From Pseudomonas paeninsulae (lineage in GTDB: Bacteria; Pseudomonadota; Gammaproteobacteria; Pseudomonadales; Pseudomonadaceae), in assembly GCF_035621475.1 (NCBI RefSeq), contig NZ_CP141799.1, positions 1,352,501 to 1,416,500 of the forward strand: DNA of 64,000 bases, read 5' to 3'. The translations under genes were made by a program, and so were the position numbers. Shown here in pieces: positions 34,811 to 42,727 of the stretch (positions within the stretch are counted from its first letter, which is position 1; every line of letters begins with the position of its first letter). The notes below the pieces were generated by a model. The model was not told the origin of the DNA. It made no database searches and saw only the letters and a program-made list of their open reading frames with translations.

Positions 34811-35003
34811 GGAGGCGAGTTCCTTGTGCGGTGCAGCCATATTCATGGCCCGGGATAATCGGGCGCATATTGTATTCAGTCTTGGCTGGGTTCGGGCCAG
34901 GGGAACGGCCAAAAGGGGACATATTTATTTTCCCTGCTCTAAACGTCCACTTTCGGCCAAGTGAGTCTCCCCTGGTTTCCTCGGAACAGCTGGCGAGCTG
35001 TTT

Positions 35004-36001
35004 TTGGCCGTTTCTAGCCACACAGCACCTCAAACATCGCGAAACAGGTCATGGGCATCGAGCAGCCGGTAGGCGATCTCCGGGTGTTTCTCCAGGCCGC
35101 GGCGGATGGCGGTTGGCAGTGACTGGCGGGTTTTGCGGCAGAGCCCCGGTAGTTGCTCGATATCAATGGCGATGCCGCGCATGCTGCGTACTTCGTTGAA
35201 GCCCGGGGCGACGGCCAGGCGGATGCCGAGTTGCTCGTACATGCGCTGTTGCAGCTTTTCCAGGTCGTTCAGGCTCTCAATGTTTTCCAGGCGCTCGAGC
35301 AGGCGTTTTTCCTCCTGGCGGGTCAGGCGCAGGATGCGCAGGTCGCTGCCGGTTGTTGCCAGCAACTGTTCGCGCCCGCAGTCGCAGGCGCCGGGTGGGC
35401 AGGGTGGGCGGATCTGGGGAGAGGGCGTCATGGGCTCCAAGCATAGCGAGCCGAGCTCGATTTTGCCCATCTGCTTTGTGACGACAGATCTGCGGGCCGG
35501 CCAGCCAACCTGCGGCCCGTAGGGTGTACTCGCCGCAGGCAGTGCACCGATGATTCTGTGGCGCGGCATAAAAGCTGGCGGGTTGTAGCTACGCTCCGAA
35601 GCCGCCCTACCTCCGAACGGAACGCCGCCCGAACCGCCCTACGATCTGAGCTGCACGCTGCTGCGAACGTCTGGAGGCGGTCTTGCGATGGTGCTTGATA
35701 TTTTCACGCCGTCTGCCAGGCGAAAGTGCTGTTTGTACAGCGGCGAGGCGATCACCAGGTCGCCCTTGAGCTGGCCGACGATGCCGCGGCCGATGACGTT
35801 GGCGCCCGATTGCGGGTCGCGGTTGTCGATGGCGTAGAGCTTTTCACCGGCGGCGGTGTGCGGCAGGTGTAACAGGGCGACCTGGACGCCGTCGTGCCAG
35901 GCGACCACGACGGAGTTGGCGACCAGATCCTCACGGCTGCACAGTGCGCGCCAGGCGGCGGGGCTTTGAGCGGCTTTACGGAAATCGGCAGATAGAACAT
36001 T
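35004..36001. repeat. Segmental duplication, copy B (nirD fragment plus accessory gene)
   Basis: This block is a high-identity duplicate of 37265-38142. Shared ends are 'agccacaca.cacctcaaacatcgcg' on the left and the 5' part of nirD on the right. Copy B keeps the full accessory gene but has lost the 3' end of nirD. The loss maps to a 9-bp direct repeat, gccgtctgc, present once here (35708-35716) and twice in copy A (37660-37668 and 37849-37857). That implies a 189-bp deletion between the repeats. Confidence 0.85.
35030..35431 (-). CDS. Hypothetical protein, full-length duplicate of the gene downstream of nirD
   Basis: 133 residues from the ATG at 35431; a longer frame to 35569 is open but its extra part looks non-coding. 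The N-terminus has a Cys cluster 'CPPGACDCGRE'. The middle is a helical 'RLTRQEEKRLLERLENIESLNDLEKLQQRMYEQLGIRL', and the C-terminus is 'LEKHPEIAYRLLDAHDLFRDV'. I do not recognise the family. A shortened copy lies at 37293-37538, next to intact nirD, so this gene was originally downstream of nirBD. Whether the copy here is expressed is unclear, since it is now behind a broken nirD. Confidence 0.65.
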   Translation of the reverse strand: MTPSPQIRPPCPPGACDCGREQLLATTGSDLRILRLTRQEEKRLLERLENIESLNDLEKLQQRMYEQLGIRLAVAPGFNEVRSMRGIAIDIEQLPGLCRKTRQSLPTAIRRGLEKHPEIAYRLLDAHDLFRDV

Positions 36002-37264: not shown

Positions 37265-38142
37265 TTTGGCCGGTTTCCAGCCACACAACACCTCAAACAT
37301 CGCGAAACAGGTCATGGGCATCGAGCAGCCGGTAGGCGATCTCCGGGTGTTTCTCCAGGCCGCGGCGGATGCCGAGTTGCTCGTGCATGCGCTGTTGCAG
37401 CTTTCCCCGGTCGTTCAGGCTCTCAATGTTTTCCAGGCGCTCGAGCAGGCGTTTTTCCTCCTGGCAGGTCAGGCGCAGGATGCGCAGGCCAGCCACCCAG
37501 CGGTTCGTAGGGTGTACTCGCCGCAGGCAGTGCACCATTGGTTGCTCGGCGCGGCATAGACGCTGGCGGGTTGTCGCTGCGCTCCGAAGCCGTACCTCCG
37601 AACGGACCGCCCTACCGCCGAGCTGGAGGCGATCTCGTGATGGCGCTGGATATGTTCACGCCGTCTGCGGGCTTGTCGCGGTTGGCTTTTGTGCTGTTGT
37701 CCGGCGGTTGGATAGGTGCGCCAGCCGGCTCAAGGGGCGAGCCGACTGCAGCCTGAGGGGCTCAAGCAAGCAGGCCGATTTCCACCGCATCGCCGTTCAG
37801 GCGAACCGGCCAGACGCGCAGGCTTTGCTCGGGGTATTCCAGGCAGCTGCCGTCTGCCAGGCGAAAGTGCTGTTTGTACAGCGGCGAGGCGATCACCAGG
37901 TCGCCCTTGAGCTGGCCGACGATGCCGCGGCCGATGACGTTGGCGCCCGATTGCGGGTCGCGGTTGTCGATCGCGTAGAGCTTTTCACCCTCGGCGGTGT
38001 GCGGCAGGTGGAACAGGGCGACCTGGGCGCCGTCGTGCCAGGCGACCACGCCGGAGTTGGCGACCAGATCCTCACGGCTGCACAGCGCGCGCCACGCGGC
38101 GGGGCTTGGCGCGGCTTGGCGGAATTCGGCACGTACGACATT
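37265..38142. repeat. Segmental duplication, copy A (nirD plus shortened accessory gene)
   Basis: Partner of 35004-36001. Copy A keeps nirD intact next to nirB but has lost two pieces of the accessory gene. One is 117 bp between ggcggatg repeats, seen as 35101-35108 and 35218-35225 in copy B. The other removes the N-terminal coding region near 'ggccagcca'. Confidence 0.85.
37293..37538 (-). pseudogene. Shortened copy of the nirD-downstream gene
   Basis: An 81-residue frame that matches the full-length copy at 35030-35431 in 'LRILRLT-QEEKRLLERLENIESLND' and 'RRGLEKHPEIAYRLLDAHDLFRDV'. It lacks the N-terminal Cys-containing part and 39 internal codons. The internal deletion is in frame and maps exactly to an 8-bp direct repeat. 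It follows intact nirD on the same strand. The start codon falls in former intergenic sequence, so the product is probably not functional. Confidence 0.75.
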
Positions 38143-38154
38143 CGATTGGCGCAT
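37762..38154 (-). CDS. nirD: Nitrite reductase (NADH) small subunit
   Basis: 130 residues, the usual NirD size. NirD has a Rieske-like fold but normally lacks the cluster-binding Cys/His pairs, and the C/H pattern here is likewise missing. Landmarks are 'WRALCSREDLVANSGVVAWHDG', 'LYAIDNRDPQSGANVIGRGIVGQLKGDLVIASPLYKQHF' and 'LEYPEQSLRVWPVRLNGDAVEI'. Its ATG overlaps the nirB stop (TGATG), so translation is coupled. Together with NirB it reduces nitrite to ammonium with NADH in the cytoplasm for nitrogen assimilation. A truncated duplicate lies 2 kb downstream. Confidence 0.95.
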   Translation of the reverse strand: MRQSNVVRAEFRQAAPSPAAWRALCSREDLVANSGVVAWHDGAQVALFHLPHTAEGEKLYAIDNRDPQSGANVIGRGIVGQLKGDLVIASPLYKQHFRLADGSCLEYPEQSLRVWPVRLNGDAVEIGLLA

Positions 38155-40712
38155 CAGAGCAGCTCCTCGGTAACGGGGATCAGGTGGAGTTCAGAGGCAT
38201 GCACCGGGCGGCGCTGGCCACGTTCTTTGACGAAGTGGATGTCCGGGTCGCCGCGTTCGTCGTTGACGAAGGTGCGGAAGCGCTTGAGCTTCTCCGGATC
38301 TTTCAGGGCGTTGGCCCACTCGCATTCATAGCGGTCGATGACCAGTTGCATCTGCGCTTCCAGCTCGGCGCCGAGGCCCAGGCTGTCGTCGATGATCACC
38401 TCCTTGAGGAAGTCCAGGCCGCCGTCCAGGCTCTCGCGCCAGACCGAGGTGCGTTGCAGCCTGTCGGCGGTGCGGATGTAGAACATCAGGAAGCGGTCGA
38501 TGGTGCGGATCAGGCTGGCGTCGTCGAGGTCGGTGGCGAACAGCTCGGCATGCCGTGGGCGCATGCCGCCGTTGCCGGCCACGTAGAGGTTCCAGCCGTT
38601 CTCGGTGGCGATCACGCCGATGTCCTTGCTCTGCGCCTCGGCGCATTCGCGGGTGCAGCCGGAGACGCCGAACTTGATCTTGTGCGGCGAGCGCAGGCCC
38701 TTGTAGCGGTCTTCCAGGCGCAGGGCCATGCCGACGCTGTCCTGCACGCCGTAGCGGCACCAGGTGCTGCCGACGCAGGATTTCACCGTGCGCAGCGACT
38801 TGCCGTAGGCGTGGCCGGTCTCGAAGCCGGCTGCGATCAGCTCGCCCCAGATATCGGGCAACTGGTGCAACTGGGCGCCGAACAGATCGATGCGCTGGCC
38901 GCCGGTGATCTTGGTGTAGAGGTCGTATTTCTTCGCCACGGCGCCGAGGGCAATCAGCTTGTCCGGGGTGATCTCGCCGCCAGCGATGCGCGGCACCACC
39001 GAGTAGGTGCCGTTCTTCTGCATGTTGGCCATGAAGGTGTCGTTGGTGTCCTGCAGCGGCAGCAACGACGAGTCGGTGATCGGCTGGTTCCAGCACGAGG
39101 CGAGGATCGAGCCCACCGCCGGCTTGCAGATGTCGCAGCCGGTATGGCCGCGGCCGTGCTTGGCCAGCAGCTCCTCGAAACTGATGACGCCCTCGACCCG
39201 GACGATGGCGTAAAGCTCCTGGCGGGTGTGGCCGAAGTGCTCGCAGATGCTCTTGTCGACGGCGACGCCACGGGCGGTCAGCTCGTTGTCGAACACCAGT
39301 TTGAGCAGCGCGCTGCAACCGCCGCAGCCAGTGGCCGCCTTGGTCTGCGCCTTGAGTTCGCCGAGGTCGGTGACGCCGGCCTCGACCTTGCAGCACACCG
39401 CGCCCTTGCTGACGTTGTGGCAGGAGCAGATGGTCGCGCTGTCCGGCAAGGCGTCGGGCCCCAGGGTCGGCGCACCCTCGGACTGCGGCAGGATCAGGCC
39501 GGACGGATCTTTCGGCAGGGCGATGCCGTTCTGCGCGTATTGCAGCAGGGTGTCGTAGTAGCTGTTGTCGCCGACCAGCACCGCGCCGAGCACCTGCTTG
39601 CCATCGGCGGAAACCACCAGACGCCGGTAGCTGGCGCTGGCCTCGTCGATAAAGCGGTAGCTCTTGGCGCCGGGCGTGGCGGCGTGGGCATCGCCGATCG
39701 AGCCGACGTCGACGCCGAGCAGCTTGAGCTTGGTCGACATGTCGGCGCCGGTGAAGGGCTGGTAGTCGCCGCCCGCCAACTGGCTGGCCACGTTGCGCGC
39801 CATGCTGTAGCCCGGCGCGACCAGGCCGAAGATGCTGCCGTTCCAGGAGGCGCATTCGCCGATGGCGAAGATGTCCGGGTCGTTGCTGCGGCACTCGTTG
39901 TCGACCACCAGGCCGCCGCGCGCTGCGATCTCCAGCCCGGCGCTACGGCCGAGGGCGTCTTGCGGGCGGATGCCGGCGGAGAACACGATCAGGTCGGCTT
40001 CGAGGAATTCACCGTCATTGAAGTTCATCCGGTAGGCGTATTCCTCGCCGGGGACGATCTCCTGGGTGGCGCGCGACAGGTGCACGCCGACGCCAAGGGC
40101 CTCGATGCGCGCCTTGAGCGCGGCGCCGCCTTCGGCGTCCAATTGCACCGGCATCAGGCGTGGCGCGAATTCGACTACGTGGGCTTCCAGACCCAGGGAT
40201 TTCAGGGCGTTGGCCGCTTCCAGGCCGAGCAGGCCGCCGCCGACCACCACGCCACGGCGGGCATTGGTGGCTGCCGCGCGGATCGCGTCGAGGTCGTCCA
40301 GCGTCCGATAGACCAGGCGCGAGTTGCCTTCGGCGCCGGGAATCGGCGGCACGAAGGGGTAGGAACCGGTGGCCAGCACCACGCGGTCGTAGGCCTGGCG
40401 TCCGGTACTGGTCAGCACTTGCTTGCGCTCGCGGTCGATTGCCAGCACCGGCACGCCGAGGTGCAATTGCACGCCGTGCTGGGCATACAGATTGGGCTCG
40501 CCGAGGGCCAGGGACTCGGCATCGCGACCGCCGAAATACTCGGAAAGGTGCACACGGTCGTAGGCGCGCTGGCGCTCTTCACCGAACACATGCACGTCAT
40601 ACCGGGCGAGGGCGCCCTGTTCGATCAGTTGCTCGACGCAATGATGACCGACCATGCCGTTGCCGATGACGATCAAGGTTTCGCGCTTGATCGGAGTGAC
40701 GAGAGAGTTCAT
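38154..40712 (-). CDS. nirB: Nitrite reductase (NADH) large subunit
   Basis: An 852-residue multidomain enzyme. The N-terminus (about 1-330) is an FAD/NAD(P)-binding oxidoreductase ('LIVIGNGMVGHHCVEQL', 'GVVVGGGLLGLEAANAL'). A BFD-like [2Fe-2S] region follows around 425-465 ('TICSCHNVSKGAVCC', 'GCGGCSALLK'), then the sulfite/nitrite reductase half with siroheme/[4Fe-4S] ligands 'CVGSTWC' (about 645) and 'CTREC' (about 685). It reduces nitrite to ammonium with six electrons from NADH. GAGGA precedes the ATG. The upstream leader carries regulatory hairpins and a terminator, and a sigma-54 promoter lies about 230 bp upstream. Confidence 0.97.
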   Translation of the reverse strand: MNSLVTPIKRETLIVIGNGMVGHHCVEQLIEQGALARYDVHVFGEERQRAYDRVHLSEYFGGRDAESLALGEPNLYAQHGVQLHLGVPVLAIDRERKQVLTSTGRQAYDRVVLATGSYPFVPPIPGAEGNSRLVYRTLDDLDAIRAAATNARRGVVVGGGLLGLEAANALKSLGLEAHVVEFAPRLMPVQLDAEGGAALKARIEALGVGVHLSRATQEIVPGEEYAYRMNFNDGEFLEADLIVFSAGIRPQDALGRSAGLEIAARGGLVVDNECRSNDPDIFAIGECASWNGSIFGLVAPGYSMARNVASQLAGGDYQPFTGADMSTKLKLLGVDVGSIGDAHAATPGAKSYRFIDEASASYRRLVVSADGKQVLGAVLVGDNSYYDTLLQYAQNGIALPKDPSGLILPQSEGAPTLGPDALPDSATICSCHNVSKGAVCCKVEAGVTDLGELKAQTKAATGCGGCSALLKLVFDNELTARGVAVDKSICEHFGHTRQELYAIVRVEGVISFEELLAKHGRGHTGCDICKPAVGSILASCWNQPITDSSLLPLQDTNDTFMANMQKNGTYSVVPRIAGGEITPDKLIALGAVAKKYDLYTKITGGQRIDLFGAQLHQLPDIWGELIAAGFETGHAYGKSLRTVKSCVGSTWCRYGVQDSVGMALRLEDRYKGLRSPHKIKFGVSGCTRECAEAQSKDIGVIATENGWNLYVAGNGGMRPRHAELFATDLDDASLIRTIDRFLMFYIRTADRLQRTSVWRESLDGGLDFLKEVIIDDSLGLGAELEAQMQLVIDRYECEWANALKDPEKLKRFRTFVNDERGDPDIHFVKERGQRRPVHASELHLIPVTEELL

Positions 40713-40754
40713 AGCCGTTCCTCAGTCAGAGCCGTTGCCAGGGGCACGGCCAGC

Positions 40755-40793
40755 AAAAAAAAACGCCTGGAGCTGTCTGCCAGCTCCAGGCGT
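40755..40793 (-). terminator. Leader terminator (attenuator) upstream of nirB
   Basis: A perfect 13-bp stem (acgcctggagctg / cagctccaggcgt) with a 5-nt loop, followed on the minus strand by nine T. It lies between the nirB promoter and the nirB start, so it must be bypassed for expression. This is typical of an attenuator rather than a gene-end terminator. Confidence 0.9.
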
Positions 40794-40832
40794 CTTTGCC
40801 TGGTATTCATGGGGTGTGTGGGGTGAAGTGCC

Positions 40833-40895
40833 CGGACCGCGCTGTCCGTTTCACCCATCCTGTGCCTGTGTAGGCCGATGGTCGGCGGTGACCAT
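40833..40895 (-). promoter_or_regulatory. Putative NasT/ANTAR-responsive tandem hairpin in the nirB leader
   Basis: Two hairpins with six-base loops on the minus strand. The first is atggtc-ACCGCC-gaccat (40895-40878) and the second cggac-AGCGCG-gtccg (40848-40833). Both loops have A at position 1 and G at position 4, the signature of RNA sites bound by ANTAR-domain antiterminators such as NasR, NasT and EutV. The second is enclosed by a gggtgaa/ttcaccc stem. The terminator follows 40 nt later. Confidence 0.75.
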
Positions 40896-40940
40896 GTGGG
40901 ATGTCCTGCCGGAGGTTTTGGCAGGGGTTGCTAGAGCATT

Positions 40941-40956
40941 AGCAGGTTTCGTGCCG
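40941..40956 (-). promoter_or_regulatory. Sigma-54 promoter of nirBD
   Basis: On the minus strand the sequence is CGGCACGAAACCTGCT. The GG and GC dinucleotides have the -24/-12 spacing of RpoN promoters (TGGCACG-N4-TTGCA), with one mismatch near each box. The predicted start near 40930 would place both leader hairpins and the terminator in the transcript. It implies NtrC control. Confidence 0.7.
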
Positions 40957-41674
40957 ACATCCGGCCTGGGTCGTAGAAGCCGGCAACGCGTAACTGGCGG
41001 ATTGGCAAAGCAGAGACAGCGCGGGCCTTGGCGGGCGATGGCGAGGTGATCCCGCTGGCGTCCTTCAGCTTCCTCGTGGTCATCGCCCAGGCGCAGGGCG
41101 GTGAACCATAAGAGTGCGAGCGGGCGGGTAGATCCCTTTTTTGGGGCGTTTCAGGCGGGCGGTCTGGCGGTTCGGTCGCGCATGGCCGGGTCTGACCGGG
41201 TCTGACCGGGCCTCGCACGATGCTCCAGGCGGCTGCACAGGCTGCATTTACCGGGGGGATGACCCCTTACCAAATAGGCGATCATGGTGTATTTGCAATT
41301 ACTGGAGGTCGCTTGTTGGTCGGATCGATCTCGGTGCACGTTTTTACACAGGCTGGACCCGGACCAGCCGGTCGCGATAGGCAACAATCGGCCAGAAGCA
41401 GACTTCAGCAACGATCAATGTCGTGGTCTGTTCCTTATTGTCCAAGTGTGTGAGCTGGCACGCACCACGTTGGAAACCGATCCACTGAAGGCTGTGGCCG
41501 GCGGCATATACCGACGACTCGATCTCACTGGGCTAGGACGATGCACCTGGCAGCCGAGGTCGGCTGCCAGGTGCATGAGATGTATGGCACCAGCAAGATC
41601 GAGGGCGTCGACGAGGTTTTCGAGTCCGGCGCCTCGGTTGTCTTCACTCCAGGCCGAAAACCGCATACACCCTA
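40957..41674. other. Long non-coding stretch between nirB promoter and a diguanylate cyclase gene
   Basis: About 720 bp. It contains a short tandem repeat ('gggtctgacc' twice at about 41188-41208) and a strong palindrome at 41541-41576. Weak open frames exist on both strands around 41415-41678, but none has a ribosome site or a recognisable product. NtrC sites for nirB would be expected here; I found no convincing TGCACC-N5-GGTGCA pair. Confidence 0.5.
41541..41576. repeat. Near-perfect 36-bp palindrome
   Basis: Arms atgcacctggcagccga and tcggctgccaggtgcat are exact inverses over 17 bp around a central GG. No T run follows on either strand. It begins about 100 bp beyond the diguanylate cyclase stop. 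It may be a protein-binding site, a cruciform or a replication/repair-prone palindrome. Confidence 0.85.
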
Positions 41675-42727
41675 CTAGGGCTGCGCCACTTCTACTCTGT
41701 TACGTCCAGCTGACTTGCCCTCGTAGAGCGCGTGATCGGCCCGCGCAATAGCGTTGCTGAGTAACTCTTCAGTACGGTACTGCGCGATGCCGATGGACAG
41801 AGTCACGCTGATTTTATTGCAGCCACTGTCAATGACCAACGCCTGGATCGCCTTGCGTATGCGCTCTGCGCTTGCAGCAGCCTGATCAAGATCGGTTTCC
41901 GGCAATACCGCAAGAAATTCTTCGCCGCCCCAGCGGCCGATAAAATCCTGTTCACGCATTGTTCTTTTGAGTGAGTTGCTCACAGCATCGAGCACCCGGT
42001 CACCAATATCGTGTCCGTACTGATCATTGATCTGTTTGAAGTGATCTATATCCATCAACATTAAGATGAGGTTACTGGGAAGCCTATGGTGTCGCGCCAG
42101 CTCTTTCTCGGTCAGCGCAATCATGTGCCGGCGATTGAACAGGCCGGTCAACGAGTCTGTCGTTGCCATCCGCTCCAGACTATTGTGCGCGCGGGTTACC
42201 GTGATCACATAGAACAGCGCAAGATAGCTGAACATGCTGAACACCACAGTCAAGTTGAAAACATGCACACCCAACAGGGCATTTGAGGAAATGGGTTGCA
42301 GAGGTTCGATGTACCACATGAGTACATCCAGCCCAACATAGTAGGCCCACAGGCACGCGGCGAGGATCCAGGCGTTGCGGGCGCGCATGGTAACGAACAG
42401 GGCCGGAATGAACATTAGCAAAAAGTAGTGAAAGCCACTTTCCCAGCCAACCAATATTGTGCCAAGCCCTGCATGCACAAGCACTTCTGTGCGGATCAGC
42501 AGGATCGCGATCCGATTACGTCGCTGTTTGAGTGCGCGATAGGCGCAGACATACATGGCCACGCTGATCACGTTAACCCAGGCCAGAATGGGTGAGCCAA
42601 GAATGAGAAAAATAAAGAAAAAGGCGACATCCACGCCGCCAGCCAACTGGCAGCAACGCATGGAAAGCTGCCAAAATTCGGGGCGCGCGTCGCGCTTTTG
42701 CGTTTTTTCTGAGTGCCGTCCTAGCAT
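41675..42727 (-). CDS. Membrane diguanylate cyclase (GGDEF)
   Basis: 350 residues. Six or so hydrophobic segments fill residues 25-180 (a 6-7-TM sensor of the MASE/7TM type), followed by a C-terminal GGDEF domain (about 185-345). The signature is GGEEF ('IGRWGGEEFLAVLP'), which is active in known cyclases. An RxxD inhibitory site (REQD) lies five residues before it, so product feedback is expected. It would make cyclic di-GMP from two GTP at the inner membrane. It has no genetic partner here. The signal sensed by the membrane part is unknown. Confidence 0.92.
   Translation of the reverse strand: MLGRHSEKTQKRDARPEFWQLSMRCCQLAGGVDVAFFFIFLILGSPILAWVNVISVAMYVCAYRALKQRRNRIAILLIRTEVLVHAGLGTILVGWESGFHYFLLMFIPALFVTMRARNAWILAACLWAYYVGLDVLMWYIEPLQPISSNALLGVHVFNLTVVFSMFSYLALFYVITVTRAHNSLERMATTDSLTGLFNRRHMIALTEKELARHHRLPSNLILMLMDIDHFKQINDQYGHDIGDRVLDAVSNSLKRTMREQDFIGRWGGEEFLAVLPETDLDQAAASAERIRKAIQALVIDSGCNKISVTLSIGIAQYRTEELLSNAIARADHALYEGKSAGRNRVEVAQP

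Follow-up and report, generated by a model that had tools for sequence, protein, structure and literature searches.

A three-hexaloop nirBD leader in Pseudomonas paeninsulae as a probable NasT-responsive transcription attenuator of the NalA type

The leader RNA of the nirBD operon in the window (the whole 64-kb stretch of DNA analysed here) is very probably an orthologue of NalA, acting as a transcription attenuator gated by nitrate or nitrite, and nirB is probably read only when nitrate or nitrite releases NasT. The proposal is based on the parts of the leader, the mutual exclusivity of its terminator and the hairpin P2, the covariation of its stems and its co-occurrence with NasT, as these appear from sequence and comparison with relatives. 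The NalA (nirBD) leader of P. aeruginosa and P. putida was reportedly the subject of work by Romeo et al. in 2012 and Nie et al. in 2024. According to a review (PMC12830290), nirBD expression requires NasT, and sigma-54 and NtrC together initiate the NalA leader; a further paper (PMC8092218) names RpoN, NtrC and NasT for P. aeruginosa nirBD. As control of the NalA leader by NasT and sigma-54 is already published, to the extent covered by these sources, the window would add a member to a known system, the corrected anatomy of this member being more elaborate.

Architecture of the leader and its promoter

On the minus strand, the -24/-12 site is followed by a 5' hairpin (P0), P1, Pm, P2, the terminator and nirB (Table 1). 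A sequence-only reading of this DNA had described the promoter, two hexaloop hairpins (P1 and the upper part of Pm) and a perfect 13-bp stem with nine T, all before nirB, and each of these elements is present and upstream of the gene. Its count of two hexaloops was incomplete, because it omits P2, which shares sequence with the terminator and shows the highest conservation of the three. The P2 3' strand (40791-40786) lies inside the terminator 5' arm, which starts within the P2 loop. Since P2 is thus built from the terminator's own 5' arm, the two structures are mutually exclusive, and because the terminator is far more stable than P2 (-27.2 versus -11.4 kcal/mol, each alone), termination is the likely default.

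Table 1. Positions of the genes and leader elements in the window
Feature	Position	Strand	Remarks
NtrC-like enhancer site CGCACTCTTATGGTTCA	41102..41118	minus	about 160 bp upstream of the promoter
Sigma-54 (-24/-12) promoter CGGCACGAAACCTGCT	40941..40956	minus	from sequence; GG-N10-GC spacing
P0, 5'-end hairpin	40905..40925	minus	CCTGCC-9 nt-GGCAGG; from the single-sequence fold alone
Outer helix	40856..40903	minus	CATCC (40903-40899) / GGATG (40860-40856); from fold and relatives
P1	40878..40895	minus	ATGGTC-ACCGCC-GACCAT, A1/G4 hexaloop; first hairpin of the sequence-only reading
Pm, compound middle hairpin	40821..40856	minus	lower stem GGGTGAA/TTCACCC, upper stem CGGAC/GTCCG; upper part cggac-AGCGCG-gtccg at 40848-40833, second hairpin of the sequence-only reading
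P2	40786..40803	minus	CCAGGC-AAAGAC-GCCTGG, A1/G4 hexaloop; absent from the sequence-only reading
Intrinsic terminator	40755..40793	minus	13-bp stem, arms 40793-40781 / 40775-40763; 5-nt loop; nine T at 40763-40755
nirB, assimilatory nitrite reductase large subunit	38154..40712	minus	852 aa
nirD, small subunit	37762..38154	minus	PF13806; TIGR02378 above cut-off

The linker between P1 and P2 is 74 nt, and 17 nt separate Pm from P2. In the predicted fold, the outer helix closes a junction that contains P1 and a small GCCT-AGGC hairpin. At least four pairs of this helix, in either of two registers, can be formed in 25 of 32 relatives, compared with 16.1 expected when the 3' sides are swapped among the sequences, and none of 1000 such swaps reached 25.

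Chance is a poor explanation for the hairpins. The leader holds three A1/G4 hexaloops closed by at least five Watson-Crick pairs; among 5000 dinucleotide shuffles, none gave three and a single one gave two. Both strands of the window together contain 14 such hairpins, and the 11 outside the leader are all solitary. The fold of the leader is also better than that of each of 200 shuffled sequences (z -4.87).

The start site assigned here, near 40930, follows from the position of the -24/-12 site and should be regarded as predicted. Nearly all listed relatives have a -24/-12-like site before their nirB leader; the -24 element in the window has a C where T is usual, which we count against the best explanation. 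NtrC binds sites of the consensus TGCACC-N5-GGTGCA, and CGCACTCTTATGGTTCA agrees with it in 9 of 12 letters, a weak match given that the window holds 58 sites scoring 9 or 10. When 13 relatives were scanned for matches of at least 10, a site like CGCACTCTTATGGTTCA was present in five (L122, L123, L124, L128 and L158), a different NtrC-like site in one (L151), and none in seven, including the nearest relative, L121. Another candidate at 41237-41221 (10/12) was dropped as main site because the five relatives have the like site at 41118 instead.

We infer NasT binding, the start site, the action of NtrC and the direction of the response as follows. Sigma-54 RNA polymerase, activated by NtrC under nitrogen limitation, would start near 40930, and by default the nascent RNA would form the 13-bp terminator and transcription would stop. 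Once nitrate or nitrite frees NasT from NasS, as published for other bacteria, free NasT would dock on P2 at the foot of the terminator and, at the same time, on one of the 5' hexaloop hairpins, P1 or possibly Pm. With P2 held closed, the 5' arm would be withdrawn from the terminator, and transcription would proceed into nirBD.

Judged by NirB, the closest named relative is Pseudomonas sp. CC6-YY-74 (98%). Two features of the surrounding region are recorded separately from the leader. A tandem duplication, in four matching pieces at a spacing of about 2.1 kb, covers 35002-36001 and 37265-38142 of the window; its second nirD copy (294 nt at 94%) has a divergent C-terminus and does not reach the NirD cut-offs, and the stretch read in the three nearest relatives has one nirD only. 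The gene next upstream of nirB, in the same orientation (41675-42727), encodes a GGDEF protein (diguanylate cyclase). The available part of a review citing a P. putida study (PMC12830290) reports that c-di-GMP weakens NasT-NalA binding. We reject this gene as a conserved nirB neighbour, as a frame with the GGDEF motif was found within 3 kb upstream of nirB in none of the 70 named loci with a full upstream flank.

Conservation of the leader and co-occurrence with ANTAR proteins

Searching 98 genomes of the genus (its own included) with NirB gave 58 leaders that were counted; left out were L055 at a contig end, which carries both P1 and P2, L106, the second and broken nirB copy of G094, and L107, whose genome is the same as that of L076. 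A pattern search located P2 in 58/58 and P1 in 56/58, the latter with A1 in 52 and G1 in four. Since both were found by sequence pattern, the loop letters are not independent evidence, but the outer pairs are: at the P1 pair five positions from the loop, 40 of 42 distinct sequences have a standard pair, where shuffles give 27.3. P2 loop position 5, an A or G, pairs with the terminator 3' arm in all 58 (A-T in 21, G-C in 29, G-T in eight). The P1-P2 linker in relatives ranges from 21 to 81 nt.

Compensatory changes were seen among 32 relatives in P1, in both Pm stems and in the terminator, where 99.7% of cells are paired and four of 11 pairs are changed on both sides; the covariation in relatives that the sequence-only reading had proposed as a check is therefore found for P1, Pm and the terminator. 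In P2, the five inner pairs form in 32/32 relatives and never vary, so that covariation is silent on this stem, and the sixth, outermost pair forms in 15/32. The P2 5' strand is conserved though it lies outside the terminator. In either count, no shuffle out of 500 attained the covariation score, and the stems fail in slid registers. The first count includes two measures, out of five, that some of the 500 shuffles matched, namely 'pairs changed on both sides' (12 shuffles) and 'further pair types' (21); in the second count, 'further pair types' was reached by 11.

A covariance model built from 32 named relatives, with the window and the three nearest named ones (L121-L123) left out, finds the leader of the window over all 142 positions with 124.4 bits (E 2.8e-33). 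Across the family, its matches at E <= 0.001 extend to 80 of 148 genomes and 12 of 19 genera and include weak or partial ones. Rfam searched over the window gave no match at the gathering threshold, and we regard weaker ones to mir-1206, Thr_leader, NsiR1 and P17 as due to chance or to resemblance to a terminator.

A search of this genome for ANTAR proteins gave NasT (G000:C1:2338930-2339505, E 2.7e-16) as its sole match. Directly upstream of nasT is nasS, named from its NMT1_2 domain, its length and its place beside nasT, so both genes for which the sequence-only reading had suggested searching are present. We compared leader parts with ANTAR proteins in 48 of 80 named loci, hand-picked to combine the odd leaders with a sample of the rest. 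Outside this set are L134 (contig end), L181 (poor-quality leader) and L197, which corresponds to G043, a genome with P1 and no NasT that would have been an exception. Within the set, 35 of the 37 NasT-encoding genomes have a strict P1, and none of the 11 others does. The two with an imperfect P1 despite NasT are L169 and L142, the latter with a 5-nt P1 loop (by eye) and an AGCGTG Pm. The attenuator is kept in 45/45 genomes with any ANTAR match and in 0/3 without; in those three (L146, L150 and L162), the terminator is absent and a -24/-12-like site, weak in L146, is kept. In the genus set, P1 is found in 54/54 genomes with NasT. The four NasT-less ones (G001, G018, G043 and G068) all encode NIT-ANTAR proteins of the NasR type; two lack P1, and G043 and G068 keep it. 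Fisher's exact test gives 3.5e-9 and 5.8e-5, and 0.0036 for the genus set, values that overstate independence because the genomes are related and the 48 were chosen to include odd leaders.

Eight genomes with an ANTAR protein and no NasT (L127, L136, L144, L149, L153, L175, L177 and L195) retain P2 and the terminator and lack a strict P1, which argues that P1 is not needed for every ANTAR protein. Judged by frame length only, their ANTAR proteins look like NasR. A search of these eight leaders for an A1/G4 5' hairpin gave TGGGC-ACCGTA-GCCCG in L127 and none common to the other seven.

Assignment of the hairpins to the switch

Because P2 shares a strand with the terminator, it, rather than the second hairpin of the sequence-only reading, represents the conserved ANTAR P2. 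The suggestion that this leader is an ANTAR target is supported, but the hairpin given that role does not overlap the terminator and is missing from 15 of the 56 P1-bearing genus leaders, in which P1 and P2 are only 21-28 nt apart and leave no room for Pm. In the available part of PMC3369931, the ANTAR rule places a P2 with an A1/G4 hexaloop at the 5' base of the terminator. Given this rule, and since P2 is in all 58 genus leaders and Pm is not, P1 and P2 are the likely ANTAR pair. The 74-nt P1-P2 linker is counted against this explanation, since it lies outside the 5-12 nt range of EutV.

Pm has properties of its own that must be accounted for. When 78 distinct long-linker leaders are compared, 71 carry G4 in the Pm loop and 55 carry A1; seven lack G4, and 18 have G4 without A1. 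In the genus, 18 of 41 long linkers fold with an A1/G4 hexaloop, compared with 1.4% of 2050 shuffles, and long linkers overall fold only slightly better than shuffled ones (mean z -1.0). RNAalifold on the 78 leaders recovered P1, the upper Pm stem and P2, and did not recover the lower Pm stem; in a test with shuffled flanks, this lower stem scored at least 6 in 65/78, against 29%. Both Pm stems show changes on both sides among 32 relatives. On this comparative evidence, Pm is a real covarying element that is absent from the short-linker class. It is possibly a second 5' docking site for NasT, and the middle region, once folded, may bridge P1 and P2 as a structured linker.

A further option is that long-linker leaders use Pm instead of P1 as the 5' partner of P2, with P1 as an accessory or second docking site. 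We regard this as a tentative and rather unlikely alternative. Pm is much closer to P2 in the window (17 versus 74 nt from P1), and all four of the 78 long-class leaders with a G1 P1 have an A1/G4 Pm, but short-linker leaders have P1 and lack Pm, and it is P1 whose presence tracks NasT in the tested relatives. Single cases such as L256-L258 (two of them alike), with P1 loop GCCGAT and Pm loop AACGAC or AACGGA, or L142 with its imperfect P1, would fit Pm as the partner, whereas the long leaders in which the Pm loop is without G4, or has G4 and no A1, would not.

Far less probable is a target composed of P1 and Pm, with the terminator blocked without an overlapping P2, which is the version given in the sequence-only reading. 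Both are A1/G4 hexaloops in the window, and Pm covaries with a largely conserved G4, but Pm does not touch the terminator, a terminator-fused hexaloop is found in 58/58 leaders, and the linker between the two hairpins is beyond the tested ANTAR range whether measured to the lower stem (21 nt) or to the upper one (29 nt); the leaders with short linkers are too short for Pm in any case. An ordinary terminator between two transcription units, without regulated antitermination, is extremely improbable despite the strong stem and nine T at the site, as the -24/-12 site and nirB flank it on the same strand, conservation extends to the P2 5' strand outside the terminator, and the terminator is absent in 3/3 relatives without a detected ANTAR protein.

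Comparison with known leaders and with RF03032

Compared with the published descriptions of NalA, the leader shares its place before nirBD, a sigma-54 promoter that may likewise depend on NtrC, an intrinsic terminator that NasT would relieve and a probable nitrate/nitrite signal via NasS. The window has a nirBD leader with a sigma-54 promoter and a terminator, and the genome encodes NasS-NasT. The species differs from those of the NalA work, and the present analysis locates three hexaloops and the overlap of P2 with the terminator and compares them across a family. The sequence-only reading had proposed joint control by sigma-54 and NasS-NasT, and this is supported: nasT is the sole ANTAR gene found, nasS is upstream of it, P1 tracks NasT, and the accessible parts of published nirBD work (PMC12830290, PMC8092218) agree.

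The EutV-controlled eut, NasR-controlled nasF and AmiR-controlled amiE leaders, as far as they are covered by our sources, likewise feature two A1/G4 hexaloops, a P2 at the terminator base and termination by default. Of these ANTAR-target features, the window shows the A1/G4 hexaloops, a P2 3' strand within the terminator and an encoded ANTAR protein; it differs in its 74-nt linker (21-81 nt in relatives) in place of 5-12 nt, its third hexaloop and its sigma-54 promoter. In EutV leaders, 5-12 nt separate the hairpins, and 3 or 14 nt impaired induction, according to the part of PMC3369931 available. As a linker of 5-12 nt is shown for EutV only, we take it as particular to that system and not as general to ANTAR targets. 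The accessible portion of PMC6759348 describes Bradyrhizobium leaders (nosR; putatively nirA and coxS) in which NasT freed by NasS also gives read-through, although the genes are others and the class differs from that of the window. The same source reports higher expression of narK-bjgb-flp in a nasT mutant despite a predicted hairpin of the NasT type.

The Rfam family RF03032 ('narK RNA') shows similarities to the nirB leader, which itself scores 15.6 bits against it, under the gathering score of 43.2. By eye, RF03032 consists of a sigma-54 promoter, a P1 and a terminator-overlapping P2 (GAC-A..G..-GTC in most), both with A1/G4 hexaloops, and precedes nitrate genes; its model has an apparent, untranscribed -24/-12 promoter at the 5' end and draws the second hexaloop unpaired. 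Compared with the nirB leader it is compact, with a linker of 8 nt in the narK leader of this genome. Matches at E <= 0.001 were obtained in 88 of 99 genomes of the genus, 84 of them over the cut-off, and in 13 of 274 genomes of the class, three of them over it. The 18 genus matches that were read stand before narK, nasS(T), nasA, an nrtA-like gene and a porin gene; one of them, the porin leader L042, has A instead of G at P2 loop position 4. Of the 13 class-level matches, two at contig ends were left out of the reading, and the others precede narK, nrtA- or nasS-like genes, nasA, a nirB-type gene (L239) and porin-like genes (L242; L245 uncertain). Names for these downstream genes come from visual inspection of the first residues; a Pfam check covered only nasS, nasT, the porin and the PilJ-type gene of this genome. 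Among the open-licence papers searched, we found none that names RF03032 and none that links it to ANTAR proteins. RF03032 appears to combine a sigma-54 promoter with a NasT target of the kind described here, placed upstream of several nitrate genes.

Within this genome, RF03032 matches the narK leader (70.6 bits) and a porin leader (34.5 bits). The latter region (L033 2582-4948; G000:C1 about 3744581) has a sigma-54/NasT-type leader, an Alginate_exp-type porin and then a protein with two PilJ (PF13675) stretches, and is a candidate nitrate-uptake operon. The nasST genes (L034 5367-5270, minus strand) have a -24/-12 site, a P2 (GAC-AATGGT-GTC) and a terminator, with a P1 that by eye appears damaged; autoregulation of nasST is possible on this basis. 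The RF03032 leader of L045 (G086) is probably a decaying remnant: the nasA-like frame behind it spans only 336 aa, and that genome gave no ANTAR match.

Taken together, the Pseudomonadaceae nirBD leaders can be described as a tripartite ANTAR target in which two interchangeable 5' hexaloops, P1 in its junction and Pm on its covarying stem, compete or cooperate for one terminator-fused P2. RF03032 would then be a compact form of the same NasT/NasR switch with the sigma-54 promoter counted in, and narK, nasST, nasA, the nrtA-like gene, nirBD and the gene of an outer-membrane porin with a possible role in nitrate passage would form a single NasT regulon. For this joint reading, we consider the arguments evenly balanced. 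Its less expected elements are the three-hexaloop layout and the resemblance of RF03032 to a NasT target.

Correcting which hairpins form the NasT switch allows loop mutants to be placed correctly. The natural knock-outs, in which genomes without an ANTAR protein have no attenuator and, in the tested set, genomes without NasT have no P1, support the model without experiment. In addition, a function is offered for RF03032, and further NasT targets are predicted, including the porin gene and nasST.
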